A stretch of DNA of 64,000 bases, from the NCBI GenBank assembly GCA_963693285.1, contig OY848917.1, positions 2,482,501 to 2,546,500 on the forward strand. The letters run 5' to 3'. The first letter of the stretch is position 1, and every line of letters starts with the position of its first letter. This document shows positions 2,856 through 52,909 of the stretch, piece after piece. The notes below the pieces were generated by a model, which ran no database searches, was not told the DNA's origin, and was given only the letters and a program-made list of their open reading frames with translations. The position numbers and the translations under genes were made by a program. The DNA is from Xestospongia muta. Its lineage: Eukaryota > Porifera > Demospongiae > Haplosclerida > Petrosiidae.

Positions 2856-5800
2856 ATGTCTCAATTTCAACGCTCCCATGACGAGATAGCTCAAGAGTTA
2901 GAGGAGAAAGAACGCTTACTACAAGATAAAGAGGTCCAAGCACAAGTTTATAAAGAAGAGGCAGAAAGTGCTAATGCCAGGGTATGCAATTATCCTGGTA
3001 AATGTGTTCGTCGGTATTGTATGATAGTTGCACACAGTTGTTATAAGTGGCGCTATGTTTAAACATAGATTTTTAAAAGCTCTTCTTGTTCATTGTTTCA
3101 ATACCTAGCTATCTAATTCACTTCCTTGCTTCATGGAAGAAAAGCGTTTTAGATATACGAAGACTATTGAATGCTAAATATAATTTATATATATAATATA
3201 GTATATTTTATGTATAGGCACTGATGTACGAACAGGAATATTACAAAGAACATGATGAGAAAGAGTTAGCACAAATTCAACATGAATCTCTTGCTAAAGC
3301 TCTTATGGAACAGATTGAGGCTCAAGAGCAAGAAGATCAGTTGTTAGAAGATCTTGCACCTGAGATTCAAGAATATTGGAGACTAAGAGAAGAAGTTAGT
3401 CTGTACTGTTAAAATAGTTATTACATAATTCAATTATAAATAGCATAATAGTAGGTACAGCATAATTTACATGCTACAAGTATGCAGGGGCAATTACATG
3501 AAGGATATGATTGGTTGCTATGATACTGGAATACATAGGAGGATAAGAACCGAGGAATATCCCCAGATCTTGATTGTATTGCATCCTGTTAAAATAATAT
3601 CACCTTAGAGAGTTATGTATATATTCTTAATAATCTACATGGTTTAGTAAATATAAAATAATAACTAGAGTCTGTCTGATGTGAGTTTGACAGCAAGTTT
3701 ATGAATTTCAACAATGAGGGGTGTTATCAACCTATATTTGGTGTGACCTTGTAAGTTTAGTTAGTCTTTTTTGCAAGTGTCATTGAAGCATTTCTTCATT
3801 CTTTTCTGTTACTTCTTTTTTGTTCTTTCTTGCTTTTGCTGTACAAAATATTTTCCATGCATTATTATAATAGTGAAGTCATGTCATAGTGGTATATGAA
3901 GAACGCATTCACTTTATATAAAATTTTTAATTTACTACTTTCCTACAGTATACATATGACATGTATGTTATTCCAAGTATTACTTGGTTCTTTGTTGCTG
4001 ATAACAAACCCTGTTGTTAGTCTGTTCTAACTGTATGCATATTATATATTTGTTTATTATTCCAATTGATATGATTTAGTATTAATCTTGTGATACTGAC
4101 AGGTTATAAGGTTATAGCATATAGAATCTCAATTTAGCAAATTAAGAAAAAACACATGTACCAACTATCAGACAATGACACTGGATAGACTCAGAATGTA
4201 GTTGATGTATTTGACCTTCATAATCAGCTTTATTTCATGACAATGACCATGGTAGTACATCATTCATTGGGAACTACTGGTCATACATAGACTAATATCC
4301 AGAAGCATTGTTTTATTATGTTCATGTTTAATTGTACTGATTGTTTATGTTACTAGACTAACTGTTATGTTACTATCCATGTTTACTTTGGATTGTGTCT
4401 TGTTGACTCCATGGTAGTACATGGTCATCTCTTTTGCTTACAACACGTACATTAATGTCAATTGTTTGTGTGATGTTATAACTCTAATGATTTATAAATA
4501 GAATGAGATCACTGTCTTAAGTATTTGCACTGTCATCTTATGTAGTATTTATGTCAATGATATATATTGTAGTAATTGTTTTGATGAGTCTATAGTATTG
4601 TAAGTATTGTGTGTAAGAAAAGTAATTGTACACTAGATAATATGAACAATTCAATTTTGTATCTAGTGTGACATTACATAGTATTAATGTCAATTGTTTG
4701 TGTGATTTTGTAGCTTTTGATGTGCCATTGCCATAGACAGTTGCACTGTCATTGTGTGTAATGACATTGTGAATGACTGAAGAAACAGTTTATACAAGAA
4801 TATATAAAAGAGAAACAGAAAAACTAACTCTTAATTTTGTATTTGTGTAGCATTGTTATATGTTGTCTCTAATATTGCTGAATACCTGATCATCTAATAA
4901 TAAATACTGTCTGGATATATATATATATAGTTTTAGTTAATTCAATTGACATTTGTAACACTTTTTATCATTATGTTTACATGTTTCATTTTAGTTAAAA
5001 CAAGTACATAAGCTTAATAATCAATTTCAACTCCAATTGAAGGAAGAAATACGACGATCTGATGAATGGCTTCAAAGACTACAGCAACAATCTTGTCCAA
5101 GTGAAGTAGAAAAAGCTAAGAAAGATCTTGAAGCAGCAAACAAAAAGGTAATAATTCATAACAAAATTAAATAAAGTTATATTTTTTGAGTACATTCAAG
5201 GGGTTTTATTAAAGTTATTGATATATTGTGTTTATGTGCCATAGATGGTTGCTTTGATTATTAAATTACACAAGTCTTCTGACTACAAGGAAACAATGCA
5301 ATGACAGCATTTCACAGCCCTGCTTTTTACAAATGAGAAAATCACACTGTAGTAGTGGCTACTATATTGTAAAGATCAATACATAAGAATACTCCTGCTT
5401 TAAAACAGATTTTTTGATGTGCCTATAGATGACCTGTTTTGACATTATAAAATATATAGATATACAGTATATACTGTGCATGTGTTTATTACATTTTTTC
5501 CTATTTGATAGAACAATAAACTTGTTCAAGAAATTGCTTATTTGAAGGATAGCAATAAAGTTAGTCTTTTAGAATATAAATTATTAGTTGTAACAAACAT
5601 GATGATATATTGCACTCTACTAATAATATTAAAATTATGTCATTGACTTGTTTTTTTCAATTATTAATAAATTATAAATTGTTGGTGGTAAGATGTTATA
5701 TCCTGCTGTAAAAATGTAATAATCAAATTTTATATTAATCAAATTTTATATTATGCAGGTTCTCCAACAGGAGAAACAACGAGCAGATACCCAGGTAATC

Positions 5801-8590
5801 ATGTATTATACTTAATTTATCATACCGGGCACACTACAGGATAATGTATGTACCAGATGTCATATATATTATTAATTTGTTTACATATTTGTTTGCATAT
5901 TTATGACCACAAGTTAATTGTCTGCATACATAAAGAATCTTACTTCTATTAAACAATGCAGCAATGACAGCATTTTACAGCCTTGCTTTTTACCATATGA
6001 TAGTAGTGGCCACGATATTGTATTGATCAATACATAGGAATACTCCTACTTTAAAATAAATTTTTTGATGTGCCTGTAGACGACCTGTTTGATATTATAA
6101 AATACAGCATATACTGTACGTGTATTTATTATATTTTTCCTATTTTGATAGAACAGAGAATATGTTCAAGAAATTGCTTATTTGAAGGAAAGCAATCAGG
6201 TTAGTCTTTTAGAATATAAATGGAGAATAAGTTATAACTCTTTGTTAAATTAAATGATATCTGAGATACCTTTAAGGGTACAAACGTTCACAGGGGATTT
6301 ATTTTTTGTGTATTTTTTGGGGAGGGGGGTAGCTGCTCAATCACCGAAATGAAAATCTACCACCTGTATTGAGCCACTCCCCTTTAATTAAAAGTTATCT
6401 CACTTTTATTTCAACTCTAATAATTCTCAAGACTTTAGGGTAATAACATAAAAATTTAGTTCTGTAAATTGCTCTTTGTTACAATCACAGAAGGTTATAA
6501 ATAAATAGTCTGAGTACCAGTCCATGGATAATATGTGATATATTGTTCAAAGATTATAAACCTGTATTAACTGACTTCTACTTATGTATTCAGTTTTATT
6601 TTGTATTTATACATACTATTTAATATCAAAAACTTTATATCCACATTTCAAATTTCTTTTTTATTTTACAAATCAATTAAGTTACCAATGGCTACATTGA
6701 ACTTGTTCACATGAAAATTAATACCTGCAAAATTATAATAATAGTGGGATTTTAAAAAATAGGAAAATTTAAACCCTCAATGTTTGTACCCTTATGGTAA
6801 ATGAATTGTTATGCTGAAAGCAATGAGATATTATCTGTTGTAACAAACATAATGATATATTGCACTGTACTAATAATATTAAAATTACGTCATTGACTTG
6901 AGACTGTTATTTTCAATTATTAATAATTTATAAATTGTTGGTGATAAGATGTTATATCCTGCTGTAAAAATGTAATAATCAACTTTTATATTATACAGGT
7001 TCTCCTACGTGAGAAACAACTAGCAGAAAGCCAGGTAATTATTACGTGTTATACTTAATTTATCATACCAGGTGCACTACAGGATAAAGTATGTGTACCT
7101 GATGTCATATATATATATTATTAATTTATTTACATATTTATGACCACAAGATAATTGTCTACATGCACTACCATCATTGAATTTTATTTTCATTATGCAA
7201 GTGCTATATTAGTGGACATAATTGAATATACCTTAAAAAGAACAATACCACAGCTTCTGCTAACACCTTCAATATTAACACTTTTATGCATTGTTTCATT
7301 TTGTTGTAGAGTGAGACATCACATCAACAATTGTTTACAACTGTGATTCAAAATCAAACTGGTTTTAATGACCCTTTTTTATCGCAAGCATCAGCTGACT
7401 TACAACAACAACTCACAAGCAGTAGAGTTAAAATTCACCAACTAAAAAGGGACAAACAAGAAAGCAATGAACAACTAAGACGAGCTCTAAATGAAGTTGA
7501 AAGGTTTAGGAAAGAGAAAGAAGTCAGTGAGGATTGTTACTTGTCGTGTCAAAGAGATAATGAAGTTCTTCAATATCAAATTGAATGTCTAAAAAGACAC
7601 AATGTGTCATCTCATTATGCTAAAAGCTTCCAAGATGAAATTGATAGACTAAGGAAAGATTGTCAGCACTCAGAAACAGATAATAAATTCTTGCAAGAGA
7701 GGATACAAGAACTGTCTTTAGAAAACGAAAAATTAAAGATAAAAGCTGCAAATATTGATGCTGAACGAAAACAATACCAGGAAGAAAGGGGAAAATGGGA
7801 ACAACAGAATACAATAGTGTTGCTAGAAAAAGCTAAGCTAGAGAGGGAGTTACAAGAGCAACAAGGTCAACATTTATCAACTCCATCAAAAGAGGACCCA
7901 TCTAAGCCTAAAGGTCGTCCTAAGAGAGTATGTTGGAGGGATGTATCTGAGCTTCAATGTGCTGGAAATGAAGATGGTGGATGGAGTGGTGACTCAGCTA
8001 TTAGTGGTGATGTAAAGATACTACAACGAGAACGCCGATATTCTTCTCCACCAACACCTGTGTATGGTATGTCAGCTTCTCAATCATTGAGACCTCTTCA
8101 TCGAACACAGTCAAACGATGAGGTATCATTAACAATGCAACAACGTGATGCATATTTTATCATAATGTACATAAAATTAATTGATGAACTATACTATGTC
8201 ACCATTGACATTCACAGTTTACAGTTTTTTGTAGTAATACTAATTAGTTTACCATTTGTTTTTTATGAGTGTTTTAGGAAGTACAAAGACTAAGAACTGA
8301 ATTAATGGAGATGAAAGCAGAGATACAACAACTTTCAGCTGAAAATCAGTTTTTTAGAGAAAAAATTGGTGACTGCAACTCAGCTTATTCTCAAGCTCAA
8401 GATTCTTTGCCACACATTCATAATAAGGTATAGTACTTTAAACTTTCTGATATCAGTTACATACTTGTTCTAAATAGTTTGAATTACTCAATATGTACTT
8501 ACAATATATAAAATTACTTCTTTGTTACAACAGGAATTTCAGTCCAAGATAGAAGCAATTGGGTATATTCTAAAAGAATTGATGAATTAG
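2856..8590 (+). CDS. Coiled-coil protein CC-A (10 exons, about 547 aa)
   Basis: Exons by splice sites and paralogy: 2856-2981, 3218-3394, 4995-5147, 5512-5559, 5759-5794, 6152-6199, 6999-7034, 7310-8122, 8278-8427, 8534-8590 (TAG). All are phase 0. The start is the ATG giving MSQFQRSHDE, matched by MAQLQRSYDE in CC-C. The protein is almost wholly coiled coil, with no membrane segment. Exon 2 (YEQEYYKEHDEKEL) sits where CC-D has a UBAN-like motif but is degenerate. Exons 4-7 are two copies of a 16+12 residue cassette. The 271-residue exon 8 has a long coil, then a basic/Ser-rich region ending RTQSNDE. Exons 9-10 end EAIGYILKELMN. It is the first member of the array; its nearest relative is CC-C, which has only one cassette. 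Probably a scaffold or adaptor; function unproven. Confidence 0.8.
5512..7034 (+). repeat. Duplicated 16+12 residue coiled-coil exon cassette in CC-A
   Basis: Two successive exon pairs (5512-5559 with 5759-5794, and 6152-6199 with 6999-7034) encode NNKLVQEIAYLKDSNK + VLQQEKQRADTQ and NREYVQEIAYLKESNQ + VLLREKQLAESQ. Each pair is 48+36 nt, phase 0 throughout, giving 28 residues, exactly four heptads. Flanking introns are also similar (for example the stretch before each 48-nt exon), so the unit was duplicated as genomic DNA with its introns. Confidence 0.8.
6273..6794. mobile_element. Non-autonomous inverted-repeat element, intron of CC-A
   Basis: The ends read taagggtacaaacgtt and, reverse-complemented at the right, taagggtacaaacatt. 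The interior has no coding potential. Copies sit at the same intron position in DD-1 (about 20333-20851) and CC-C (about 35997-36504), so it inserted before these genes were duplicated. Family not assigned. Confidence 0.55.
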
Positions 8591-9352: not shown

Positions 9353-12300
9353 ATGAGAATCACTCAACCACCTGACGAACGTGTTCAAGAATTAGAAATA
9401 CTTTTGCAAGCTACACTGATTCAAGCAGAAGCCTATTGGGTAGAGACAGAACAGGCTAAACTGAGGTAGGTTGTTAACGTGTTGAATAGCATTGAGATAA
9501 CATCTCGACATCAGCTGTGTGTTGGTAAGATGTAATGATGGCAGTGACACTTTGTTAGAGCGTATGCTGTCAGAGAATGAGCACAACCAATCAAACGCTA
9601 TAATGTTTATGGTTATCTGTGTGATTAGCATAATTAGAGTGGATTATTCAGGCAACGAGTTTGTGAAGATGCATTTCACAATCATAACTTTTTAAAATTA
9701 ATAGTTTATTGTTATTTATCATTCATTCATGACCACATACAATGATAGCCTTCTTACTGTAGAATATTTTGCAAATGGATTTCAGAATATAAAAAAAGGA
9801 TTATACTATTACTGTTTGTCCACACATCAAACAGCTGTTTGATGTGCTGATTTAATCCATTTTTCATCTTGTTTTTACCCCTTAGCATTTAATGGGGTAT
9901 CTGATAAAGAATAGTCTATGGTCAGAAAAACTCTAAACAAATGATTTTGCCAATATTGACTTTTTTTCAATGCCTCTCCCCTCCCATGTCTATTGATACA
10001 GCTAGCCTAGTACTGGTCATTCTATTTATTCACATACTGAAAGTAAAATTTTCCTTTATTCCATCCCTCACTCCTCCTCTAAATGATAGTTAGTATAACA
10101 GTGTAACACTTGTATTATACTTGTATATACATTGTCCTGGTGTTGTAAGAGTTTGCATATTATATATTTCAAAGTAAAGAGCAATTAAAATTCATTAGTT
10201 GTTTATAATCACTTATCCAATAGTCAACATCAATAATTATTAACATGCAATGAGATATACATATACCTTTAATACAAGTATAACTATCAACCTACATTAT
10301 AATAATGTAGTATGATGTACACATTATATTCCTGAACATGACAATTAAAATAAATAAAAGTAAAAATAAATAAATATAATTATATGTGAATATATTTTCC
10401 TGATATAGAAATCTGGCACTGATCAACATTTATTGATTGTTTTCATCCAATGAAATTATCTTTAACTTCCTAATTTCTTATAATGTACCTTTAATATTTT
10501 AGATTGCTAGTGGAGAATCAAGACATAAAGTTACAAACATTAAGGAAGACCTTCAACAGATGAGAACCTATATTCACAAGCTCAAAGTTCTCTCTCTTAC
10601 ACTGATGATCAGGTATGTATGCCATGTCTGTTTTATTAGAACAATGTCAACAATGTAGAAATAAGAGGCAATAGTATATATTGCTCAATATCATGTTCAT
10701 AAATCATATAGAAAATGTTTGCCAATACTTAGAAGACATTTGCCAACACTTAGAACATGTCTGCTATTGCTTGGAAATTTGTCAAGGAATGTTATTATTA
10801 ATCAATTTTTTCACATCAAATACTATCATGATATTTTCACAAAAACATAATAAATATTTTTAAGCATACAACTTCCTTACTACTTTTATCATGACACCTT
10901 CCAAGTGCCAGTTTCCCAACTCTGGAACACTTCCATATCTCAGAACTCTCGAACAACAAGTTACTATTCAGGACATAATATTTCACTTTTGCCTTTGAGT
11001 CTCTACATGTATTTTGGCTAAAATCACCCTTCAAACTATTAAAACTTTATTAGTAATTTCCAAGTTCTCTCCAATACTGTAATACTCAGTAAACAACTGA
11101 GCTCTCAATAACTGGTTACTCTTCATGTACTATATACTAGCTAGACATCTAGGCCAATAGGATCCATGCAGTTAATTAAGAGTGCATACATACTGAAATT
11201 TAGTTGTGTATGTTACCAGCAATAAAGTGTAAAGGACTTGATAACAAGAACAATATAATCTGAGCAGTTTGACATTGTGCTACTCATCATACTCAAATTC
11301 CATTTAATTTATTGACAATATATCGTACGTTATGATGTTAGAAAAGTTTGTGAGTTTACTTACCTTTTAGCAGAGATGGACACTATTGACATTTCAGTAG
11401 TAATGTAGATATTTGGAATTCTTTTTTGATGCCATTCTAAACTTAGAACAAAACATGACATTATGATCTTTACATTGTTTGATATAATTTAAATCCTTAA
11501 TTTCATAATTATTTTATTGATACAGACTGCAGATGATATACCTAACCAATCTTACCATCAAAAGCAAGATGCAGCAGTTCAATTTAATTACCTTATCCCT
11601 TCATCTGGTAAGGATATATATAAAAGAAATAACATCATTCTCTTGATTTATTACGTATATTATAGTATTTAAAGGATGAATATCAACATGAAGACAGAAA
11701 TGAGCTTGTATTTTTTTATTTTGTTAATGAGAATGGATTTGTTTAGCTTGTATTACAGCCACCTCCTAAAGGATGGAAAATCATACAAATAGTTAAACCA
11801 TGTTTGGTTAGTGATTAATACTAAACTTACTTTTAAAAACTTGTGAACCTCTCCAATAGTTATGGCAATCTAATATTGATAAGTTTGGTTCAACTTTGTA
11901 CCCAATTCCCTCATCATGTCTGTTGTTAGTGTATGCTGATGATAATACCAATGTCCTTCTAAGCATCTTATTTACACTATTCCTTTGATAGGAACTCAAC
12001 CAAGCTATGGAGATAACTATCATATAAAGTTTAAAACACCTTCAGTGTCAGGTAATGATATATATTATTACTAGACTGTTAATGCATGTCACTTTAGAAA
12101 TCCTTCTCTGGAGCTGTAACTTCTAACAACATTAACACTGGTAAATTGTAATTTTATGTCTATATATTTATTTGTTTGAATTCCTGACAGCTATTGACAT
12201 CAGAAAAATGAAGCAGTTAATAATAAACGTTCTCACAAATTGTCATGATACCATTATAGGTGAATTTATGGCAGGGCTAGCCTTCAAAAGAAGTCCAACA

Positions 12301-12447
12301 GAATTCGAAGAACATTTAAAGAAGTTCTTAACATGTTTGAAAATAATTCGGGGCAGTTTTGCTGATGCCTCTAGTGTCCTTCAAGATGAATGGACAGAAA
12401 TTTTTCAAAAAGAACTAAGCCTTCAAGTTAACTTAAAGATGAGCTAA
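9353..12447 (+). pseudogene. psi-B, decayed copy of the CC-ZU5 gene
   Basis: Exon-like blocks match the CC-ZU5 gene: 9353-9465, 10503-10612, 11526-11607, 11666-11806, 11860-12051, 12191-12447. Several lesions disable it. The ancestral start ATG is ATC (a new in-frame ATG lies two codons upstream). A base is lost near the end of exon 1. Two bases are gained in the 10503 block. A TAG lies at 11744-11746 inside the block that should read GFVEL. One base is lost in the 11860 block. The central part of the final helical domain is deleted. All coiled-coil exons between 9465 and 10503 and the whole ZU5 exon are missing. Introns and splice sites are kept, so it arose by DNA duplication, not retroposition. 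The last block still encodes GEFMAGLAFKRSPTEFEEHL. Confidence 0.85.
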
Positions 12448-12835
12448 GCAGTCAATGTGTCAGTATCTAAGTAACTATATACTTTATTGTTAACTAATGT
12501 GATCCTTTAATGATTAATGTTCTTAATAACTTTGTAATAACAGGAAGTGACTAAAGTCATGAAGGAAAACTATCTTTATATGTTTGAACCAAGTTATTAG
12601 TATTCATATATTTCCTGCTATTAATATTTGGGCTAGGTCTTCACAGGAACAGAGTTATGAATTATTCACAAGTCAATATTTACAATTCTCAAGTGGCCCA
12701 CAGTAAAGTGCAGGTAGACAACTGAAGCATAGGTGGATGAGGCACTTATATTTTGGGGGGGCTCACACCATAACTATGTAATGAATATGCAGACACGAAT
12801 GTACCCATAATGCAGAAAGTATGTTTGATATAATT

Positions 12836-13998: not shown

Positions 13999-14263
13999 TC
14001 ATTACAATCAGTATTACCAACATTAATTTAAAATGTACCAAAGTATTTCCTTTACTCATCATTTACCATAACAAATTCCTTAGCTTTTTCAACAAGATCA
14101 CACTCATTAGTTATGCATTTGTGTACATGAAGGACCAGACATTGTTAAGCCATTTTTCCATCATTGTGGCCTGCAAATATGTCAAAACTTTTGACAGTTT
14201 CATCAACACCAATAAGATTAGCCTAGATTCTTTTTGTGGGGTATGTAGCAAGCAATAAAAATT

Positions 14264-14340
14264 TGGGGGGGCTGAGCCCCCTCTTTCTAAATATTGGGGG
14301 GGGGCTCCAGCCCCTCCAGCCCCCCCCCCCTTCAGCCTCC
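14264..14340. repeat. G-run/C-run tract
   Basis: Runs of 7 to 12 G followed by C runs around gctgagccccc and gctccagcccc form short inverted repeats. It looks like the end of a dispersed element, since the flanking cctcctatgtgaagac has an approximate inverted partner near 12730. Not assigned to a family. Confidence 0.35.
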
Positions 14341-15310: not shown

Positions 15311-15361
15311 AGGCTTGCTAACTTGCTAACGTAATAAAACTGTTTTTTACTTGTAGCATTA

Positions 15362-15457
15362 CCGTATTTGCTGGTTGTTAGGTGCATATGGTTATTAAGC
15401 GCATATTTTCTTCCTGTGGAGATACAAGCGCATGCACTTAATAACCAGCATTTACGG
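15362..15457. mobile_element. 96-bp TA-flanked MITE (Tc1/mariner-like)
   Basis: The termini ccgtatttgctggtt and aaccagcatttacgg are inverted with few mismatches over about 25 bp, and TA flanks both sides. The paralogous site near DD-2 (about 48737) reads gcattatatg with a single TA, which is the empty site. The TA target duplication is typical of Tc1/mariner elements. Confidence 0.7.
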
Positions 15458-16211: not shown

Positions 16212-19200
16212 ATGGCTGAGAGCGTTGCCTTAGAAAGTTACAGAAAAGATATTGTTGATGTCTTTAATTCTTACTATGACAAACTTAGCTCAGTGCTTGA
16301 TGGATGTATTGAGTCGTTTGTCAAAAAGGCGTACGCAGCTCAACTCATATCTGAACAAGTCATGAAAGACAAAAACTTCAGTAATGTATTCAGTGAACTC
16401 AAAGTTGGATTGGAGTTAAAAACCACTGAAGCAGATATGTTGAAACACTGTGAATGTATTATTAAAATACTCGAGGACCTTGGTGGACCAGCAGCAATAG
16501 TTGGTAAATACCTTGCTGTTCAACTTACTGGTACGTAAACTATGAGACATTTAGCAGTAGTAGTTATTATATTCATGTAATATTAAAACAGTATCATCTA
16601 TATAAAAAGGCATCATGTGAGTGGGTGTGGTCACTAAATCATAAACCCTTTGTTTCAGGATTACCTTGATCCATGAATGCATTATGTATTAGATTATTAA
16701 TTGTATTAGATACTTGTTAACCTTTTTTTCTACTTGGCATGTTGCATGTGCCAGGCGATCCTATAATTGTTTTGGACTATGTGTTAACTATATATATAGC
16801 AACAAATGACTTGGATATGTACTTGCATATGCTCAGTACTTATAAGCTGACTAACATCATAGAGCATGTGCGTAGATACGTTCCAATGTAACTTGAACTA
16901 ACTTCCTAATCCTGGATTAGAATTTTAGCATAGGCACCTCATGTTACTAACAACATACCATAGCTATGTTTGTTTTTGTCGTTTTAATATATCATTGTAT
17001 GCAAATTTTGAGAGCAACAAATGAAATTATAATTAATGTAACAAACTATAGATGTAGTTACATTATAATCCATTAAGAGCATACTTGTACATTCTTACTT
17101 TTCATTTTAGATTCGCCAAATCTTTTAAACCAGTATGGCCTGACTTATGAGGACATTGATAAAGAGTGTGATGAGGGTCTTTTCATCGAAGTTTCTCAAC
17201 ATGTAGACGACTACATGAAAGTTGGCCATGGGCTTAATTTGCCAGATGAAATACTTACAAATATTTCACAAAACAAGAAAGATGACATAGAAAGAAAGAT
17301 TGCTATACTGTGGGCATGGAAACGGAAAAATGGCAGTGCTGCTACTTGTACTGAACTAGTAAAAGTCTTTTTGAAGTTGGAAGATCGATCAGCAGCAGAA
17401 TACATTTTGAAATATCTTTTAAAGCAGAAAACAATACCTCATCAATCCAACTTTCAATTTCGTCTTAATCCACAGAAAGCGAAGGATTGTTATCCAAATT
17501 GGGATGATTACACAGAGAGTGAGAAGGAAGATGTGAAAAATACACTAATGGACGAAAACCAAGACATACGAGAAGCTTATACTGTTTTCTTTAGCCAAAT
17601 TATGGATTCGTTCATTGAGCGTAAAGTTGACCCAGTGGTTATTCGGTCACTTGCTAATAGCTATAGTCAGGTTCTTTGTGAAGTGTTTGCCACATCCAGT
17701 AAAGATGACAGCATTGCAACAGTGTTTTATGAATTTTCCAGACATTGCACATGGTTCAATTATGAATTGCTTCGAGTAATTGTTAAGATCAAAGGTATTG
17801 ATACTGAAAAAGAATGTCTACAGACGTATGAAGGTGACCATCTCATCCCATATTTGAATCACTCTATTTTTGAGATACCGTGCACTCCATCTGAAGATCC
17901 ATCTCGTACCCATCTCCTTTTTAAAGTATCTGAAGATTTGTGTATAACTGGGAACCAAGTGAAAGCTATTCAACGAAACCTTGCCAAATTACTTGGGTTT
18001 AAACACCGTACTATCTTGCATTTTGAAGATTATAATGAAGGGTGTATTGAATTGGTATTTAGTCTTCCCACAGTGGTGTTAAACAAAAGTCCCCGTGATT
18101 CTCCACTATTGACGTCTATTGAGTGGGAAGAATCAAGGAGTTGTTATAAAGTTACTGTTGATTTACTTACTGTCTTGTAAGTTTTTTTATTAATTTATTA
18201 TTTTTAATCTAAGGTTGTTAGATCATGTTCAGATAAACCAGAGGTATCAATTCTTTGTAATATGTTACAAGATGCCCTCAAACAGCTGAATTTAAAATCA
18301 AAAAACGAAGAGAGTGGTCAGTTCATTCTATTAATTCATAATATTACCTTATGTGTACAGAGTTTGAGAAGTTACTTGATCCTAAAGATTTGAGAAGAGA
18401 GTCAATACAAATAGAACAGTTAGAGCTTGTGTTAAGTGAACAAACAAGTATATAACAGCCATTTAATTTTATTGTATCATTCTATTTCTTATATAGAGAA
18501 ACTGAGAGAAAAAATAAGTGAAAAAGAAGAGTTGATGAATGAACTTACAAGAATTAGAGAAGAGGTTTTTCAGTTAGAAATGAAGGTAGTACATTATGAC
18601 ACTAAAAATACTAAAGTTTGTATTCTTTTTTATTTTGTACATAAATATTTCATGAACAAGAAATCAAACTTTCATAAAATTACATGTACATGATGTTTTC
18701 AGATTAATCCTTGAGTAGAACAGTTGTCTCTTGACCATATAATACAAACTTGCCTATATCTGGTATACATTTTGAAAGAGAAGTATATGCTATATATGAT
18801 ATAACATGTGTACTATGGCTTTATCATAATACAAATATAGTAATCACAAGAGCTAAAATTTTGACAAATGACCAATCAGAAAGTGATCAACACCTGTAAC
18901 TATGGTCAGGGGTGGAGGTTGCCTATAAGAGTAATATAAAATCATGTGTATGATGTATGTTATATCATCAATATTAGAACAAAATTTTAGAAATTTGCAA
19001 CGAGATTTTAAACACTTTTCACAAAGCTAACCATGAAATTGTCCTGAGATAGAATATCTATATATATGAGGTGCATGGGTTTTTATTTTGTTCATATTTT
19101 CTTGTAGTATAAATTATAGCAAACAGTGTATTAAATTAATAATTGCACCAAACAATTAATAAAACTTTTAATGAGCTTTACAATGACGATCCATTTAGAT

Positions 19201-39216: not shown

Positions 39217-40047
39217 ATGGCACAACCACCTGACGAACGAGTTCAAGAGCTAGAGATACTTTTGCAAGCTGCACTGATTCAAGTAGAAGCCTATCAAGAA
39301 GAGGCAGAACAGGCTAAAGCTGCGGTTAGTTGTTAACGTGTTGAATAGCATGGAGATAATATCTCGACATCAGCTGTGTGCTGGTATATAAGATTTAATG
39401 ACGGCAGTGACACTTTGTTAGAGCGTATGTGCTTGGAGCTGTCAGACAATGACCAAAGCCAAGCAAATGCTATAATGTTTATGGTTGACTGTGTGATCAA
39501 CATAATTAGAGTGGGTTATTTTCAGGCCACGAATTTGTGAAGATTCTTATTACAAATATAATTTTTTAATATTCATTCATTTTTATTTATCCCATCACTG
39601 TTTGTCCACACATCAAACAGCTGTTTAATTTACTAATTTAATCCATTTTTCATCTTGTTTATACACCTTACCATTTAATGGGATCTCTGATAAAGAATAG
39701 GCAATGGTTGGAAAGCTCTAAACAAATGATTTTGTCAATGTTGACTTCCATTTTCAATCCCTCTCCCCTCCTATGTCTATGGTTATAGCTATCATATACA
39801 GCCTAGTACTGGCCATCCTATTTATTCGCATACTGAAAGTAAAATTTATCTTTATTTCATACCACACTCCTCCTCTGAATGATAGTTAGTATAACTGTAC
39901 TAACACTTGTATTATAGTTGTATATACATTGTCCTGGTGTTGTAAGAGTTTACATATCATATATTTCAAAGTAAAGAGGAAATAAAATTCCTTAGTTATT
40001 TATAATCACTTATGCAGTAGCCAACATCAATAATTATTAACATGCAA

Positions 40048-40085
<38 letters not shown>

Positions 40086-43000
40086 ATTACAGGTATGTAT
40101 GACTATCAACCTATATTATTATTATGTGGTATTGTGTATCATGCACATGTTACTATAAAGAACCCAAGCATGTATTAGTTTAATACCTAAGTCAGTAATA
40201 CCCATTGATAGTTAATAGCAGGTGCGCATGAGTGTCGCGAAGCAACGCGAAGGAACATCAAACTCCCTTAGCCAACTGTTATCGAATCAAGACTTAGAAC
40301 ATATGTCCATATATGGACATAACTGCTACGTGTTTTACGCTTCTGGGCTGTAACCTTTTAGTAGGTGTGCTTTAAATAGATAAATTTAAGAGAAGTCAAG
40401 AAGATGGCCGAGCGACCTTGAACAACATATATCATTATATTCTGACACAAGATAACTCCAAAGTGTTCTGGTGTTCTGTGTGGACAAGGTGTCACAGGCC
40501 AATGTGCCTACTTCCTTGTACCACGCAGCAAGGAAACTACCAAAACGTTCATTACCCTTGTAATAGATGCAAAAAAGCTGGCATAAAGTTCTTTATAAGA
40601 ACTCCAACAACTTCCTTAGCCTGAGACTAATTTTCATGTATTGCCAGAGAACTAGTCTTGTTGAATAAGATGATATATGTTGTTCAACTGTTTCCATCTT
40701 TTTAATGATGAAAGCCTCCATAACCTCCAAGTCCAATTCTTTTAAACGTTTCTTGATATACATAACTTCTTTCTCACTTTCAACTTCTTTGTTTTACTCA
40801 CCATAGATGATTGTATTAATAATCATTGCTCCGTCATGTACTTAGCAGTACTTATGCTACGTAAGTGAATTTTCCTTATATGGAATAATCCTTGACCATG
40901 TTTCGACAATGGTTAGAATACAAATATAGTGGCAGTTTGACGCTCCTTTGCGACGCTCATGCGCTCCTGGTAATAGTTGTATGTGTGGTAATAATGATAG
41001 AGATACTAGGAAATACCAAGTCATATAAAACTAGTAAAGGGATTATAAAAGTATTCCAAATAAGGAAAAATACAATTATTATTATAGTAGGACACTTACA
41101 TAAAACTAATGTCATCACTACATTCATATATAATTAATATCGTATGTTTTACATTTTACAGGCAAAAATATATGAAGATAATTTTCGTAAGGAACGTCAA
41201 CAAAGAGAGCGGTCAAGAACTCAATATGAATCTCTTACTAAAGGTATGATAGCACAGATTGATGATCTGGGACGAAATGGTGGACGATTTGGTAGTCCTG
41301 ATCGTATACCTGAACTTCAAGAAGAGAATGAGAAATTAAGACAAGAGGTTAGCCAGTATAATAGATTACTAATGTACTGTTTAAGTAGACTTGTTAGTTG
41401 CTACTAGTAATTACTAAACAGATATCTAATAATATGGGATAACTTGTAGCTATAATAGATAGAGATAGCTACAAGAAGTGTAATGTGATATGCACACAAT
41501 GTGTGTGTATTATCTGAATTGTTAGCATTTCAATACTCTATTAATTCCAAGTCATTTAGAAATTTACCATAGTACATTAAACCTACTATTAATGATGTGT
41601 ACTAATTTGAGTGAATTTAGCAAATGCTATCATTTTGACAGTATAACGAAATTCCTTTCAAAATAAATTACATTATTTAAGCTATCACATACTGTAAGTT
41701 AATATGTATAATGGCACTATAGTCTTAGCTTAATATCATGCCTAGTATTTTAGCCAAAAGATTAAAGTTTAACACATCCGGGTTTATCCATTTTAGTGAG
41801 GATTGTATGGAAAGTGTCACTTGTTGTAATAGTTATAGAAATTATAATAGGGTCACTAGTAGTACTTGTTTATTCAATGACTGTCCCACCTACTTCCTGA
41901 ATTGATCTACCCTGTGTGTCTATCTATGTTATGGGATATACATATACCATTAACAATTGTTTATACAGCTATTATATACATGTACATGTACATATGTCTA
42001 GGGTCTGTTGTATTATATGTCAATGTGTATTGAGAAAACATAAAATGTAGGTAATATAAACAATACTATGACAATCACAACACAGTCTTTAAGTTAATTA
42101 AATAAATTTCTTACAAGTACCTTATATGGTATTTGCAATTTTTTACAGAATAGACAACTCCATCTTCTTAAAGATGAACTGAATATTCAACTTGAACAAG
42201 AGAGACAACAATCTGATAAGTTATCTCAACAAAAACAACTTCAGCTACAACAACAAATGAATGAACTTATAAGAACTAAAGAGGAGCTTGTTCATCTACA
42301 AAGAAAGGTCATATTACACATAATGATAGATAGATGGACTAAACATATAGAGCTATAAGTATATTATCTTTTAAGATAAAACATGTCTTCTACATGAGTA
42401 TGTGAACAAAGAAAGAAGAATCAAACTTTATATAATTACATTTACTTTGTACTAAATTGTACAGTTTTTTTCAGATTACATTGTAAAGCGAACAGCTACT
42501 GTCTCTTAATTTACTTTAGTACTTGTCCATTTAAGGTATGCGTTTTAAAAGAGGCTACATTCCATACTATACAGTGGAGTAGGAAGATGAAATTCATAGG
42601 GGGGGGCACAACCCTACATGGTGATGTTAGGGCAAACTACACTATATATTGATTAGTGCTTTTTAAAGCATTTTTGTGTACATGTTATTTTCTCTGACCC
42701 GCAACATGGAAATGTTTTTTTAATACAATAATTAAAACATACAGTTAAAATTGTCCAAAGTAGCTTAATCAACATGATACATGTTTTATATAATAATTAA
42801 AGGCGGGCAAGGCCCCCCTTGCCCCCTGGTTCCTACTCCCCTGCTATAGATCTATCATAACACCAATGCAGTAATAGCTAGCAACAGATTTTTGATAATT
42901 GACCAAAACAAAAGTAATTAACACCCCAAGCTTATTTAGGGGTGGAGTTTGTATATAATAAAACTAAAGGTATACAATGTAGGTGTTATATCAGGTACTC

Positions 43001-46000
43001 AATGGCTATTATAGTAAAACTATCATATTTCCTCAAACAGATGTTGCCCTCAAACAGTAGTAGCCTCCCCTTTCTCTGTGTGGCATCGAAATTAATGCTG
43101 CAGCCTTGAATTGATGTTAATGAAAGTCTTTCCAATGTAATACTTCTTTGTTTTACATTCAGTCTGAAGTTCTAAGTCTTGGAAAATTTCATCAGCTTTG
43201 TTTTTCAATCCTTCCTTTGCCCCATTCCTACTAATAAGTTCACCAAACAACTGGCATCACATACATAATCCTTAGATTGCTCAGTATAATGTCTAGTCAT
43301 TTTCTTGACTAAAGAGACTTTAAAGAGTTTATTACAAACACCAACATGGTATTTCATTACAACAAGAGCTTTTATCAGTCAAAAAATTGTTAAATTTGAG
43401 AAGCGTTTTGAACAATCACTTCACAACCAAGTAATAACATGTGACATCAACTTACACTTCAATATAAGTAATTGCTTAAACTACTGTCAAAGTTCTTGCT
43501 ATCATATCCAATACAGAGTTCTAAAGTCACAGTTAATTATAAAGGTTCAGAATCAATCCTTTATATTAGTGGTTTTTCTTATTCCTATATTTAAATGCAA
43601 CCTTCAAATAGTCACTTCCTTTGAAAAGTAGCCTCCAACCTTTGACTATAAATTAAAATAGATTTCATGGCTCTTATCCAAAGATATACAGTTAATATTT
43701 TGAGATGATAAACACTTTTTATAAAACAAATCACTGATTAACTATGATAAAGTTTGTACATACATATATGAGGTTCATATTATTTTTTATTTTGTGTATA
43801 ATTTCTGTTGTATGAATTCCAATAAACAGAATAATTAAATTAATGATTGGACTCATTAATTAATAAATGTTTAAATGATGGTTTACCCTGATACAGAAAA
43901 TGACTTATAACTTGAATGGATGTGACTCAAGTGTTAAGAAATTAATTATATTGTTAAATATATATATTATAAAACTTTACAATAATGCTGTAAATTACAC
44001 ATGTATAAGTTTGTTGTCATCCTTTAGAATGGTGAATTCATTAAAGAAATCACTGATCTGAAACAACAAAATCAGGTTAGTGGTTATACCAGTACAAGTT
44101 GAACATTATCCATTAATATACTATTTCTGGTGCCACAAACAAGTCCTCTCAAAATTAAGTCCAGTCTTTATACAAAGGTTGATTTGTGATGCCTTTTTTC
44201 ATAACTACCCTTTGTAAAACATGGACTAAGTAACTGTGTCTACTTAAATGTGCTTTTTTTCATACATCATCAACATGTGTATTTTATATATAACGTGTAT
44301 GCTATTGTTGGTACTGTTAATTCACATTATACTACATTATACTACATTATACTACATTATACTACATTACACTACATTATACTACATTATACTACATTAT
44401 ACTACATTATCAAAGTCATACAATTAGATATGATAAAAATGATATTTTACAGGTTCTCGATGATAAGAAAAAACTAGCTGAGAGTCAGGTAAAACAACTT
44501 TTTACAATAATCATATGCTAGTTTATATGTAATGACCCCCTTTGAAACTGCTAACCTGTTTTAATATTCTGCTCATGCTGTATGTACAGATAGTCTTAAA
44601 TAATGTATTTTAGTATGTCTATAAAAGTTTTAGCTTTCATTGGGATTTTAAGCTGAAAGACAACCTTTTTCATACATTATATGTTGGGCATAACAGCTCA
44701 AAAGCAACAATGGACTGGCGCATGCATGGCTCAAAGCTACAGTACCAAAAAATATATAATTAATTTTTAAAAGCATGTGTTTGAATGAAATTAAGAACAA
44801 ATTATATTCATTCTGTTTTTATAACCATACAAATATTTGTATATGTATATACATTTATACTTATATCTTTGTTTGACTGTTTATAGAGTGAAGCTTCACG
44901 TAAACGTTTGTTTGACTCTGTTCTAAAAAATCCAGCAGCTGCTAGAGATCCTTTTGCTTCTCAAGAACCAGCTGATTACCAACGACAAGTTTATCAAAGT
45001 AGAGCCATTAATGAAAAACTTGAAAAAGAAAATCAAGAGTTGCTTCAATTTAAACGGCATAAAGAGAAACTAGAAGGCGAGCTACAGCGTGCTCTTTTTG
45101 AGCTGGACCAATTGAGAAAAGACAAGGAAAAGGCAGAGAAACTATGTTCAACGTATAAAAGAGATAATGAGATATTAGGAGGTCGAGTTGGCAGTCTTCA
45201 AGAGAAAGTAAGACAACAAAATCCTTTACAAGATGATGAAAACAAGCAAGAGGAAATCGATACATTGAGGAGACAAGTTACTAAACTTGTTGATGACAAT
45301 AAAACACTGAAAGCATCACTGGATGAACTACTGAAGAATAAAGATGATGATAAGAAAATGTCTACAGCTATTAAGAGTGAAAGAAAGCAATACCAGGAGG
45401 AAAGGTTAAAATGGGATCAAGAAAGAATAAAGTTACTTCTGGATAAAGCTAACTTGGAAGGTGAATTAAGAGAGCTTCAAAGTCAACGTTTAGCTTCATC
45501 TAAAGAGGATCCAGTTCAGATCCAACATCGCCCCACAAAAGTGTCATGGAGTGATCAATCCAGTAGAGGAGGATATAGAGACCAGGGCATTGAACAGAAT
45601 CAGGGCAAGGGTAGTAGTGGAGACGCTTCGAGAAGAAGTCACTACCATTCACATAGACAAAGCTATTCTTCATCTCCTGGTCATCATTTGCAATCTTCAG
45701 AAGAACATCAACCACTTCAACGAACACAGTCCATTGATGAGGTAACAATGCGTTTAATATTATATGATGTATGTATTTATTTCTATTCATAACATCTTGT
45801 GACTTTTATGTATAAACTAAAGATGATTCTACTTGAGTCAAAGCAAATTCATAATTGAATAAACTCCATTACAATATTAAACTAGTATGAGATTTGTTTG
45901 ATCTCAGTACAATTAAGTCTCCATAGCACATTCAAACATTAGTTGCCTAATCTATAAGGAATGGCATGTGATACACAACTACACATTTCTTGACGTTGTT

Positions 46001-47530
46001 AATTAATATTCCTTAAATATTACTTCATAAACTCTGTTTTAACAAATAAGTTAACACCATTCTTTAATTAGAGTACAGATGGGAGTGAGACTACACTTTC
46101 TTAGATGTATTCATGTATATATTTTTATCATTAACATTACACTGATCATCATTAAGTAACTGTATTTAGCCAATAAAATTATATGTATATATATATATAC
46201 ACATATATACTTCTTAAAATTCGTAATTTCTTGTAACATGTAACTTTAATATTTTAGGTTGCTGGTGGAGAATTGGGACAATTAAGACGTGAATTCACAA
46301 TGATGAAGGAAGACCTTCAACAGATAAGAACTGAAAATAGATATCTTCGCGAAAGAATTGGAGATTGTAATTCAGCCTATTCCCAAGTTCAAACTTCTTT
46401 TTCCTACACTGGAGATGTGGTATGTATACTTTGTCTAGAATAGTACCTTCATTTATGACAATGTGGAAATAGATATGCTTTGTCTAGAATAGTACCTTCA
46501 TTTATGACATGTGCAAATAGAAAGCTATTAGAGTGTAGTTAACATAAGTGAAACAATTATTATCATGTCTTTCAAATTACAGAATGTAATGTTTACTTTG
46601 TGAAGACCTCAAATCTTACCTATTATTATTAAGCTTTCATGTTGCTTAATAGTTCTCTATAGTATTTTCATTATACTATTGAAGTACCAACAGTATTAAT
46701 GTAACAATTGGTGAATATTAACCAGTAAACCAGGGACTATATTATAATACAATATCTATTGTTCTTGTAATGCATATAGGAATATCAGGACAAATTGAGA
46801 GCAGTTGGACAAATCTTGAAAGAAATTATGTTTGATGGTCAAAGCAGCTCCCGTCACTCTTCTACTCGGGTAAGTAACTGTGACTTGAATCTGTGTTACT
46901 TTTAGAAACAATAACATCAACAAATCACATAAAGGACTCGTGTACCTGTAATAATGCCACACCCATAGTGTGTGAACATTTAAAATAGGCTACTGTTTCT
47001 AACAGGACTAGGTTTGGTTAATTTATATTGTCGAACACACTTTCATTTGACAAACAGTCCTATACTTTTTTTGGACAATGTGGTTGTACATAAACAATTA
47101 TGTACATAAGGCCTATTCAATGGTCCAAACCATTATTCTCTAATATGTTCATAGCCTGAGTTATAATATTGATTCAAATGACTTAGATCAAACTCTACCT
47201 AAACAAAGTATATGTACACTAAAATACTATGGTTGTTTATAAATTTATAGTTGTAGCAAATGTGTAAGTAGAAAAATGTTGAGTGCTTCTGTTTATGTGT
47301 AAATTCATTGTTAATACATTAAGTTAATAAGTGTGGAAGGAATTAAGGCATGCTAAATTGTTAACACGAAACATGTACACTTATAATATGTAATAAGTAC
47401 TGTATTATTGAGTTACTGTGTGTTTATCTTTATCAAATAGTCTCGTCGTTCAAGACCTCAGCAATACATGGAACCTTTTCCTCCTTCTGACCCATCCTCA
47501 TCTGCTTCCTCATTAGAACAAAATTACTAA
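39217..47530 (+). CDS. CC-D: UBAN-like coiled-coil protein with Ser-rich tail (9 exons, about 577 aa)
   Basis: Exons: 39217-39324, 41162-41347, 42149-42307, 44028-44075, 44453-44488, 44887-45741, 46258-46419, 46780-46869, 47441-47530 (TAA); all phase 0. Exon 2 encodes IYEDNFRKERQQRER, close to the UBAN motif of NEMO/optineurin/ABIN (Y-x-x-D-F-x-x-E-R-x-x-R-E), which binds linear ubiquitin chains. The key Asp before Phe is Asn here. Then come long coil, one cassette (NGEFIKEITDLKQQNQ, VLDDKKKLAESQ), a 285-residue exon ending RTQSIDE, and coil with RYLRERIGDCNSAYS. The tail is SSSRHSSTR, SRRSRPQQYMEPFPP and LEQNY. Its introns are nearly identical to those of CC-ZU5. Predicted cytosolic scaffold; ubiquitin binding uncertain because of the substitution. 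Confidence 0.8.
40219..40969. mobile_element. 751-bp hAT-like non-autonomous insertion in CC-D intron 1
   Basis: The ends caggtgcgcatgagtgtcgc and gcgacgctcatgcgctcctg are inverted with few mismatches over about 23 bp. Flanks are ttaatag and gtaatag. CC-ZU5 carries the empty site (gttaatagttg, about 24207). CAG termini and a 7-8 bp duplication suggest the hAT group. Inside is an 18-bp perfect inverted repeat (40418-40435 with 40670-40687). No transposase. Confidence 0.7.
42572..42843. mobile_element. Second copy of the caggggagtaggaa element, intron of CC-D
   Basis: Orthologous to 25548-25860, with ends cagtggagtaggaa and ttcctactcccctg and the same flanking ctata. Shorter through small deletions. 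Confidence 0.5.
43030..43690 (-). pseudogene. Antisense gene relic inside a CC-D intron
   Basis: Near-identical copy of 26040-26690 at the same intron position. The minus frame is broken by further small indels here (for example near 43225). Confidence 0.35.
44326..44410. repeat. 10-bp minisatellite, 8 copies
   Basis: attatactac repeated eight times (one unit attacactac). Same locus as 27281-27335 in CC-ZU5, which has five copies. Confidence 0.85.
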
Positions 47531-49148: not shown

Positions 49149-52100
49149 ATGGCTGAGAGCGTTGCCTTAGAAAGTTACAGAAAAGATATTGTTGATGTCT
49201 TTAATTCTTACTATGACAAACTTAGCTCAGTGCTTGATGGATGTATTGAGTCGTTTGTCAAAAAGGCGTACGCAGCTCAACTCATATCTGAACAAGTCAT
49301 GAAAGACAAAAACTTCACTAATGTATTCAGTGAACTCAAAGTTGGATTGGAGTTGAAAAGCACTGAGGCAGATATGTTGAAACACTGTGAATGTGTTATT
49401 AAAATACTTGAGGACCTTGGTGGACCAGCAGCAATAGTTGGTAAATATCTTGCCGCTCGACTTACTGGTACGTAAACTATGAGGCTCTGACATATTTAGC
49501 AGTTTCTATATTAATGTAATATTTATATAAGGGAATTCATCCTAAAGACATCATCTGAGTAGGTGTGGTCAATAAATCTTAAACCTAGATTTCAGGATAG
49601 CCTAGATCCACATAAGCTGCATATTAAATTATTACATGTATTAGATATTGGCAGTGTCTATTCGTCCAGCAGGAAATGTATACTTTGTTGTGTATTAAAC
49701 TGATCCCCACCCCTTAAACCTTTATACAACAAAGTATACATTTCCTGCCGGACGAATAGACACTACATTAGATATTCGTTAACCATTTTTCTGCTTGACA
49801 TGCTGCATGTGCCAGGTGGTCTTATAATTGTTTTAGACTATATGTTAACTATATATACAGCAACAAATGACTTGGATATGTACTTGCATGTGCTCATCAG
49901 TACTTATGAGCTGACTAACGTCATAGACCATGACCATAGATACACTACAACACAACTTCCTTGTCCTGCTTAAGATTTCATCTTAGGTACCTAATGTTAC
50001 TAACGATATATCATAGGTATATCTGTCTTCATCAATCTAATATATCATTGTATACAACTTTTGAGAGCAATGAATGAAATTACACAGCATCTTTTAGCTG
50101 CCCATGCATATAACAGTGACTGATATATAATGCATGAAGCTTTTCACTAGCTTGGTCGTCTTTATTTTTAGCATTCTATAGCTATTAGTCTTTCACTAAA
50201 ACTGCTGCTAGTCTTGTAATCTTTGTAGCTCCAGTCAGTGTTTCACTGTGAAGTTATTAGCTTCAAAAACAAAATATAGGATGATTTTTTAATTAGTCTT
50301 GTTTCTTATATATATATATATTTATGACTTCAGTAATGTAACAAACTATAGATGTAGTTACATTATAATCCATTAAGAGCATACTTGTACCTTCTTACTT
50401 TTCATTTTAGATTTGCCAAATCTTTTAAACCAGTATGGCCTGACTTACAAAGACATTGATAAACATTGTGATGAGGGTCTTTTCATGGAAGTTTCTCAAC
50501 ATGTAGACGACTACATGAAACTTGGCCATGGGCTTAATTTGCCAGATGAAATACTTACGAATATTTCACAAAACAAGAAAGATGACATAGAAAGAAAGAT
50601 TGCTATAATGTGGGCCTGGAAACGAAGAAATGGCAGTGCTGCTACCTGTACTGAACTAGTAAAAGTCTTTTTGAAATTGGAAGATCGATCAGCAGCAGAA
50701 TACATTTTGAAATATCTTTTAAAGCAGAAAACAATACCTCATCAATCCAACTTTCAATTTCATCTTAATCCACAAAAAGCAAAGGATCGTTATCCAAATT
50801 GGGATGATTATACCGAGAGTGAGAAGGAAGATGTGAAAAATACACTAATGGACAAAAACCAAGAGATACGAGAAGCTTATACTGTTTTCTTTAGCCAAAT
50901 TATGCGTTCATTCATTGAGCGTAAAGTTAATCCAATGGTTATTCGGTCACTTGCTAATAGCTATGGTCAGGTTCTTTGTGAAGTGTTTGCCACATCCAGT
51001 AAAGATGACAGCATTCCTACAGTGTTTTATGAATTTTCCAGACATTGCACATGGTTCAATTATGAATTGCTTCGAGTCATTCTTAAGATTGAAGGTAATG
51101 ACGTTGAAAAAGAATGCTTACAGACATATGAAGATGACTATCTTATCCCATATTTGAATCTCTCTATTTTTGAGATACCGTGCACTCCATCTGAAGATCC
51201 ATCTCGTACCCATCTCCTTTTTAAAGTATCTGCAGATTTGTGTATAACTGGGAACCAAGTGAAAGCTATTCAACGAAACCTTGCCAAGTTACTTGGGTTT
51301 AAACACAGTACTATCTTGCATTTTGAAGATTATAATGAAGGGTGTATTGAATTGGTATTTAGTATTCCCACTGCAGTGTTGAATGAAAGTCTTCGTTTTT
51401 CTCCAATATTAACATTAATAGAGTCGGAAGAATCAAGGAGTTGTTATAAAGTTACTGTTGATCTCCTTACTGTCTTGTAAGTGTTTTTTTTTATTAATTT
51501 ATTATTTTTAATCTACGTTGTTAGATCATGTTCAGATACACCAGAGGTATCAATTCTTTGTAATATGCTACAAGATGCCCTCAAACAGCTGAATCTAAAA
51601 TCAAAAAATGAAGAGAGTGGTCAGTTCATTCTATTAATTCATAATATTACCTTATGTGTACAGAGTTTGAGAGGTTACTTGATCCTAAAGTGTTGAGAAG
51701 AAAGTCAATACAAATAGAACATGAACAAACAAGTATATAACAGACATTTTATTTAATTATATTATTCCATTGTTCTTATGTAGAGAAACTGAAAGAAATA
51801 ATAAATGAAAAAGAAGAGTTGATGAATGAACTCATGAACACTAGAGAAGAGTTTGTTCCGGTAGCAATGAAGGTACTACATCACGACACTAAAAATACTA
51901 AACTTTGTATTTATATTTTGTACATAATCAAATTATTAACAAAGAAAGAAGGATCAAACTTTCGTATAATTACATGTACATGATGTTTTCAGATTGATCC
52001 TTGAGTTGAACAGTTGTCTCTTAACCAAATAATACAAACTTGCCTATATCTGATATACATTTTGAAAGAGAAGCACATGCTATATATAACGTGTATACTA

Positions 52101-52909
52101 TGGTTTTATCATAATACCAGTAAAGTAATCACAAGAGCTAAAATTTGACAAATGACCAACGGCACCAACAAGAAAGTGATCGACAACACATATGACTATT
52201 CTTAGAGGTTGGGATTGCATTAACATGTAAATGTAATATAAGGTCAAATTGTATAGGTACGAGGTATAATATCCATTGTTCTTATAATACATATAGAAAT
52301 TTCCAGACAAATTAAGAGTAATTGGACAAATCTTGAAAGAAATGGCATTTGGTAGTCGAAGCAGTTCCCGTCGCTCTTCCTCTCAGGTAAGTAACTGTGA
52401 TGTAAATCTGTGGTATTTTTGAAACAATAGCACCAATAAGTCACATAAAGGACTTGTGTACCTGTTATAATGCCACACCCAATTATATGATCATTTTACA
52501 TAGGTTACGGTTTCTAACAGGACTAGGTGTGGTTAATTTATATTGTCGAACACACTTTTATGTGACAGGCAGTTCTTTAATTTTTTTGGCCATGTGATAT
52601 GTACATAAACAATTATGTCCATAAGGGCTATTCATGTCCAAACCATAGTAGAAATTGTTGAGTGCTTCTATTTATGTGTAAATTCATTGTTAATACATTA
52701 AGTTAATAAGTGTGAAAGCAATTAAGGCATGTTAAATTGTTAACATGAAACATGTACACTTATAATATGTAATAAGTACTGTATTATTGAGTTACTGTGT
52801 GTTTATCTTTATCAAATAGTCTCGTCATTCAAGACCTCAGCAATACATGGAACCTTTTTCTCCTTCTGGCCCATCCTCATCTACTTCCTCGTTAGAACAA
52901 AATTACTAA
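49149..52909 (+). CDS. DD-2: helical domain + Death domain + short coiled-coil tail (7 exons, about 605 aa)
   Basis: Exons: 49149-49467, 50411-51476, 51525-51619, 51664-51732, 51784-51872, 52297-52386, 52820-52909 (TAA); phases agree. The frame is open a further 57 bases upstream, but the ATG shared with DD-1 (ACCATGG, MAESVALESYRK) is chosen. It has the same N-terminal helical domain, Death domain (LGHGLNLPDEILTNI, WAWKRRNGSAAT) and extension as DD-1, differing by scattered residues. It lacks the whole coiled-coil body with cassettes and large exon. A short coil runs straight into the CC-D-type tail (LRVIGQILKEMAF, SSSRRSSSQ, SRHSRPQQYMEPFSP, LEQNY). Exon 4 is 18 bases shorter than in DD-1. 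A chimera of a DD 5' part and a CC-D 3' part; likely a Death-fold adaptor (inferred). Confidence 0.82.
49651..49766. mobile_element. Foldback MITE in DD-2 intron 1
   Basis: Two 39-base arms (49653-49691 and 49726-49764; agtgtctattcgtcc at the left end) are inverted with one mismatch around a short spacer. attagatatt flanks both sides, a 9-10 bp target duplication. The DD-1 intron shows a single attagata site. The long duplication suggests the Mutator group. Confidence 0.65.

Follow-up and report, generated by a model that had tools for sequence, protein, structure and literature searches.

We examined a 64,000-nucleotide stretch of the genome of the sponge Xestospongia muta (assembly GCA_963693285.1, contig OY848917.1, here C1:2482501-2546500; hereafter "the window"), which contains a tandem array of coiled-coil genes at positions 2856-52909. 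We assembled the gene models manually, using three-frame translations and comparison among paralogues, and sought copies of individual exons in the whole genome (158,027,690 bases in 28 contigs). The array comprises six intact genes, encoding proteins of 516 to 1032 amino acids, and one pseudogene, all on the plus strand and numbered G1 to G7. This count had been proposed in an original prediction made from the letters alone, and it is confirmed by the models: all six intact genes have GT-AG introns with consistent phases and no internal stop codons, and each starts with an ATG exon and closes with a stop exon of its own. The coil genes are built from common exons, designated E1 to E8, whose borders are in phase 0. 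The original prediction had also described a modular array in which alternative N- and C-terminal signalling modules are carried on a common coil, and the separate start and stop exons of each intact gene agree with that description. All five combinations of termini that it listed (UBAN-like/short, UBAN-like/tail, deleted-UBAN/ZU5, Death/short, and Death/tail) are found in the gene models.

The array consists of three tandem alpha-beta gene pairs (G1-G2, G3-G4, and G5-G6) followed by a seventh gene, and it contains two deep coil lineages. The alpha genes are G1, G3, and G5, each of which ends in a short stop exon; the beta genes are G2, G4, and G6. Five genes (G1, G3, G4, G5, and G6) contain the core coil exon, E6, and G7 and G2 lack it, so the coiled-coil body once ascribed to all seven units belongs to five of them. 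This exon has five matches in the genome, all inside the window (all 23 candidates were scored). Synonymous divergence (Ks) of the core is 0.12-0.17 in the three alpha pairs and 0.07 in the single beta pair, and it is saturated in the six alpha-beta pairs (1.28-1.76). The alpha gene of a pair is separated from its beta gene by 0.76-0.91 kb and G4 from G5 by 0.85 kb, the other two intergenic gaps being about 1.6 and 3.5 kb. Repeated blocks, 1.5 to 4.3 kb long, occur along the array at 84-92% DNA identity, which is above chance. The alpha blocks are 89.2% identical between units 1 and 2 and 86.7% between units 2 and 3; the corresponding values are 91.1% for the beta core, 92.1% for the ZU5 block of G2 and G4, 88.0% for the CARD-Death block of G3 and G7, and 83.7% for the tail block of G6 and G7. 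The combinatorial assembly originally proposed is correct as to modularity, but the modules are not freely mixed: they are set in three alpha-beta pairs and differ in the stretch that runs from a beta core to the alpha core after it. By our reading of the exon comparisons, this stretch extends from E7 of a beta gene to E4 of the next alpha gene. The E4-type (19327) and E5-type (19719) exons of G3 resemble their counterparts in beta genes and hence mark a junction of parts with different origins.

Among the alpha genes, G1 (2856..8590, 547 amino acids) is modelled from splice junctions, open frame, and exon homology; it has an E1-E3 arm, duplicated E4/E5 exons, core E6 at 7310-8122, E7 at 8278-8427, and the short stop exon at 8534-8590. 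G3 (16212..22609, 938 amino acids) begins with a CARD-like exon (16212-16530) and an exon containing a Death domain and a possible TRADD-N segment (17111-18176), followed by link exons (18222-18585), E4/E5-type coil exons, core E6 (21346-22131), E7 (22295-22444), and the short stop exon (22553-22609). G5 (33165..38312, 516 amino acids) has its core E6 at 37024-37836 and its short stop exon at 38256-38312. Among the beta genes, G4 (23401..32315, 1032 amino acids) passes from E1 directly to E3, E2 having been lost except for a truncated remnant at 24410, and continues with core E6 (27813-28616), a shortened E7 (29133-29240), an exon at 30167-30248, a ZU5-like exon (30297-31034), further exons (31084-31907), and a CARD-like exon (31957-32315). 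G6 (39217..47530, 577 amino acids) has its core E6 at 44887-45741 and ends in Ser/Arg tail exons (46780-46869 and 47441-47530). G2 (9353..12673, ending at about 12.67 kb) is the pseudogene: its frame breaks where exon 1 ends and again in an E7 remnant (about 10503), E2-E6, the ZU5 exon, and the exon after it are missing, and its CARD-like exon (12145-12444) is shortened by an internal deletion. G7 (49149..52909, 605 amino acids) combines the CARD-like, Death, and possible TRADD-N modules with short link exons and a Ser/Arg tail. An identical 18-base sequence, GGGGAGGGACTTTAGTCA, stands upstream of the first exons of the three beta genes, starting 5 bases before 9327, 23370, and 39186, and is perhaps a promoter element that they have in common.

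The N-terminal cassette of G3 recurs in G7. The CARD-like exon (16212..16530) is 95% identical in amino acid sequence to the copy at 49149-49467, and the Death domain (17167..17433) has its copy at 50467-50733. As predicted, the Death domain is recognized by Pfam PF00531 (34.9 bits, cut-off 22.6), which also matches all 12 aligned copies. The module previously called a "helical domain" is CARD-like. It is N-terminal, beside the Death domain, in G3 and G7 and C-terminal, after the ZU5-like region, in G4, and the earlier name understated a CARD-like death fold. The domain has the helical-bundle fold of a CARD, and hhalign of the family to CARD gave 60.4%, compared with at most 0.9% in controls; the C-terminal copy in G4 (31957..32312) aligns with the N-terminal CARD-like exon and with genome copies. 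Three comparisons did not return CARD: the 25 families that Pfam listed for an alignment of 17 CARD-like members do not include CARD, none of 50 PF00619 genome matches among the matches listed overlapped the family when compared by eye, and a Protein Data Bank (PDB) profile search with the family found no CARD and nothing informative. Exon 2 of G3 continues for about 250 residues beyond the Death domain. Its last 88 residues (17911..18174) contain a Gly-Cys pair that is invariant in 12 of 12 aligned copies, and they show beta/alpha secondary structure in a poor AlphaFold2 (AF2) model (mean confidence score, pLDDT, 47). This recalls TRADD-N, in whose turn a small residue is accompanied by Ser or Cys (PMC8195603). 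The TRADD-N profile PF13820 had no match to the segment and likewise none to control sequences, so absence of the domain cannot be read from this result, and a PDB profile search with the segment found no TRADD, only STAT5 at E 1.2 or worse. We regard a TRADD-N-like identity of these 88 residues as a possibility.

The ZU5-like domain of G4 (30299..30757) forms a C-terminal cassette together with the CARD-like domain. Here the earlier assignment to ZU5 holds through relatives of the window copy: the latter stays below the PF00791 cut-off of 21 bits (the open reading frame scores 15.9, the exon 17.3, and the complete G4 protein 13.3), but it is exceeded by more distant copies outside the window with about 50% identity, for example those at C7:6981104 and C6:2363287, which match the window exon at E values of about 1e-42 to 1e-39. 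In the set of 11 aligned copies, 8 match PF00791 at E <= 1, the window copy having the highest score. A PDB profile search with the ZU5 exon gave no matches. The UPA profile (PF17217) also gave none in the ZU5 region, and its controls were equally silent, so absence of UPA cannot be read from this result. Self-cleavage has been described at HF/S in PIDD and at SF/S in CARD8 and NLRP1 (PMC3210808). At this position G4 has Asp-Phe-Cys (30710-30718), and of the 10 other copies in the alignment three (L023, L024, and L025) have HFS. Because Cys may serve as the nucleophile in other self-cleaving proteins (PMC3210808), G4 may still be cleaved at its Asp-Phe-Cys. All seven of the best ZU5 matches outside the window are followed, 1.1-1.5 kb further along the same strand, by a CARD-like exon.

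Both cassettes are genome-wide modules, and the copy numbers given here are lower bounds. Scoring 114 of 157 candidates gave at least 113 matches to the Death exon, the top match from outside the window being 67% identical over the whole exon; there were at least 150 matches to the CARD-like exon (150 of 327 candidates scored) and at least 150 to the ZU5 exon (150 of 398 candidates scored). Elsewhere in the genome too, a CARD-like exon precedes a Death exon on the same strand, examples being C1:15498673/15500338, C3:1600394/1601170, and C9:6412681/6410513. Three other loci have a similar link exon after the Death exon, and beyond it the C-termini differ. One of the C-termini found after a Death exon copy (L050, C3:8685154-8691153) contains two helicase-like stretches, of which the one scanned matches AAA_11 at 51.7 bits; others contain coil segments and a repeat-like frame that we read, without Pfam confirmation, as putative leucine-rich repeats. 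Comparison of G3 and G7 gave ratios of nonsynonymous to synonymous divergence (Ka/Ks) of 0.25 for the CARD-like exon (p 0.06) and 0.29 for the Death exon (p 2.8e-5; joint p 1.6e-5), in Fisher tests that assume a synonymous site share of 0.235. Taken together, the CARD-like and Death exons of these genes are under purifying selection.

The ubiquitin-binding UBAN motif reads D-F-x-x-E-R-x-x-R. By our own alignment, the N-terminal arm of the array can be placed on this motif at 41168-41212 in G6 and, in decayed form, at 3224-3268 in G1 and 33469-33513 in G5 (all plus strand). The corresponding residues are N, F, E, R, R in G6, E, Y, K, H, K in G5, and E, Y, E, H, K in G1, so the Asp position is occupied by N, E, and E in the three copies that retain E2. 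Changes in the same motif weaken ubiquitin binding in NEMO (D311N, E315A, and R319Q; PMC11854354) and in ABIN1/TNIP1 (D485N/D472N; PMC11940065). The UBAN-like N-terminus of the original prediction is therefore recognizable by its motif position, but its key aspartate is gone, and judging from these residues the arm has probably lost ubiquitin binding. A complete motif (D, F, E, R, R) is found in a neighbouring gene on the minus strand (57635..61374), in the exon at 60695-60267; the exons of this gene are partly modelled, and its Cys/His-rich end lies at 57635. With the UBAN exon of the neighbour as query, 14 matches were obtained at E <= 1, and every one lies on contig C1 at 2.25-3.25 Mb; eleven stretches examined cover the other 13. 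Eight exons with the UBAN motif (L069-L075 and the neighbour) lie at 2.54-2.77 Mb; seven have D at the first position and one (L073) has N. A further match in this block, L078, lacks the motif part, two at 2.25 Mb (L076 and L077) are decayed, and another, L079, yielded no reading frame that cleared the filter used. Relative to the motif, E2 of the array starts at the same place as the UBAN exon of the neighbour.

We next compare the array with known systems. Lineage-specific expansions of Death-like and TRADD-N proteins (357 proteins) have been reported in Amphimedon (PMC8195603), and these resemble the array in having a constant N-terminal Death-superfamily unit, a variable C-terminus, and a very large expansion within one genome. 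They differ from it in that here the variable position is taken by a UBAN-type coil, within a local array, and the TRADD-N segment is putative; the C-termini named in that account are ankyrin, SH3-LRR, kinase, MATH, SH2, PDZ, caspase, PNPase, and HD, with no coiled coil among them. The array shares with the NEMO/ABIN/optineurin UBAN family the exon start relative to the motif, the motif context, and an adjoining cluster, but it lacks the aspartate in the three copies that keep E2 and has new terminal modules. In the CARD-coiled-coil (CARD-CC) proteins CARD9 and CARD10/11/14 the CARD directly precedes the coil, whereas in G3 a Death domain and about 250 residues separate the two and in G4 the CARD-like domain is C-terminal. 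CARD-CC homologues have been reported solely from species that possess Bcl10, and the authors of that report did not find Bcl10 outside planulozoa (PMC5978004). In CARD9 and CARD11, a CARD-coil interface is described as keeping the protein inactive, its disruption allowing the CARD to template Bcl10 filaments (PMC6624267). G4 is similar to the FIIND-CARD proteins NLRP1 and CARD8 and to the ZU5-UPA-DD proteins PIDD and UNC5 in its ZU5-like region, further exons, and C-terminal death-fold-like domain; it differs in having Asp-Phe-Cys for HF/S or SF/S, a coil upstream, and no match to UPA. In the sponge Dysidea avara, 128 Death genes and 39 CARD genes have been counted (PMC12909245). Searches of a protein database found nothing at E <= 0.001 for G6 (best 7991 word-sharing candidates scored) or for residues 1-470 of G3 (5967 candidates scored). 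No published array of this kind was found among the top-ranked literature results, a coverage that leaves out most subscription papers. A constant death-fold unit with variable C-termini is known from Amphimedon; a version with a UBAN-type coil was not found in the literature searched.

Based on these observations, we propose that the locus is an offshoot of the UBAN cluster in which a coil became joined to death-fold cassettes and in which pairing of coils within a lineage sets death-fold assembly, a reading to which we give an even chance. The source of the locus would have been a tandem cluster of coiled-coil genes of UBAN type (NEMO/ABIN/optineurin-like), and an alpha-beta gene pair would then have been duplicated into three units. 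Genome-wide exon cassettes would have been joined to the coil in the stretches that separate a beta core from the following alpha core, G3 and G7 gaining the N-terminal CARD-like/Death/possible-TRADD-N cassette and G4 the C-terminal ZU5-like/CARD-like cassette. If coils pair within their lineage, pairing would fix the number of CARD-like or Death domains that are gathered. By analogy with known adaptors, G3 (alpha) and G4 (beta) could be death-fold-bearing scaffolds that gather these domains through their coils; G1 and G5 (alpha) and G6 (beta) could be coil-only partners that dilute, complete, tune, or block G3/G4 complexes, and G7 a coil-less death-fold competitor for their partners. A bolder form of the proposal, tentative and rather unlikely in our estimation, is that CARD-coiled-coil scaffolds arose here independently from a decayed ubiquitin reader, with coil type serving as the partner address (alpha-alpha, beta-beta), death-fold members nucleating assembly, and coil-only or coil-less paralogues setting its threshold.

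Several results weigh against this proposal. Besides the motif and the exon start, the array arm is tied to the UBAN cluster by a weak match (tblastn E 0.009 within the window). The G6 arm retrieved no UBAN protein from the PDB, and a genome search with E2 of G6 matched only the three array copies, so we regard descent of the arm from that cluster as likely but not demonstrated. The neighbouring gene itself scores 19.2 bits against Pfam CC2-LZ, below the cut-off of 35.3, and matches the TNIP2 UBAN structure 5h07 only at E 2.1, so its naming rests on the motif. The divergence between alpha and beta cores is saturated, and their common origin therefore rests on 39-46% amino acid identity and the same exon order. 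Heptad windows at p <= 0.01 are patchy, amounting to 1 to 6 of the 32 to 49 windows in each of the five coil-bearing genes and to none of 14 in G7. Finally, the G1 and G5 arms show no constraint (Ka/Ks 0.87 for E2 and 1.02 for E3; joint p 0.43) and the G4-G6 core comparison gave Ka/Ks 1.47 with no significant excess of Ka over Ks (p 0.075), so a function of the coil is not proven. Positive selection on the G4-G6 core, which we had considered, was dropped at this p value.

The unconstrained arms of G1 and G5 would fit a second explanation, in which the array is a by-product, the kind of mosaic that tandem duplication, unequal crossing-over, and gene conversion ordinarily leave in a repetitive genome; its combinations would be mostly short-lived and without combinatorial signalling. 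Block identities of 84-92% point to recent turnover, one unit in seven has already decayed to a pseudogene, and E2 is gone from G4. We consider this account possible though on balance unlikely, since six models remain open with intact splice sites and the CARD-like and Death exons are under purifying selection. It is also conceivable that the units are alternative first, middle, and last exons of one or a few large genes. The phase 0 borders of the coil exons mean that the frame would be kept in splicing across units, and the gaps within pairs and between G4 and G5 are short. Every intact unit nevertheless has its own ATG and stop exons, and AATAAA or ATTAAA occurs within 200 nucleotides past the stop codon in all six genes, a weak indication at 31% GC; we judge the large-gene model improbable. 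That the arm still reads polyubiquitin, making the array a set of ubiquitin-sensing adaptors, is very improbable: G6 keeps F, E, R, and R, but it has N in the Asp position, where G1 and G5 have E, matching changes impair binding in NEMO and ABIN1/TNIP1 (PMC11854354, PMC11940065), and 7 of 8 cluster exons keep the D that the array lacks.

In the bolder form of the proposal, nature would have run an experiment here in the assembly of death-fold adaptors. Cassette copies, a related UBAN cluster, and young mosaics in a single genome let the modular construction of such adaptors be viewed close up, and make it testable by what route CARD-like and Death modules came to sit on a coil and whether ubiquitin binding was lost as death-fold ends were gained. 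New signalling adaptors may arise in this way from ready-made cassettes on one coiled-coil scaffold. The likeness to rapidly evolving immune-adaptor loci that was originally suggested seems reasonable as an analogy.

Three further features of the window were noted. A kB-like pattern has a single plus-strand match, at 14299. A tandem repeat pair with a 321-base period and 98% identity lies at 13058-13701. Minus-strand open frames at 54051-55441 belong to another coiled-coil gene, and one of these frames faintly resembles E7.

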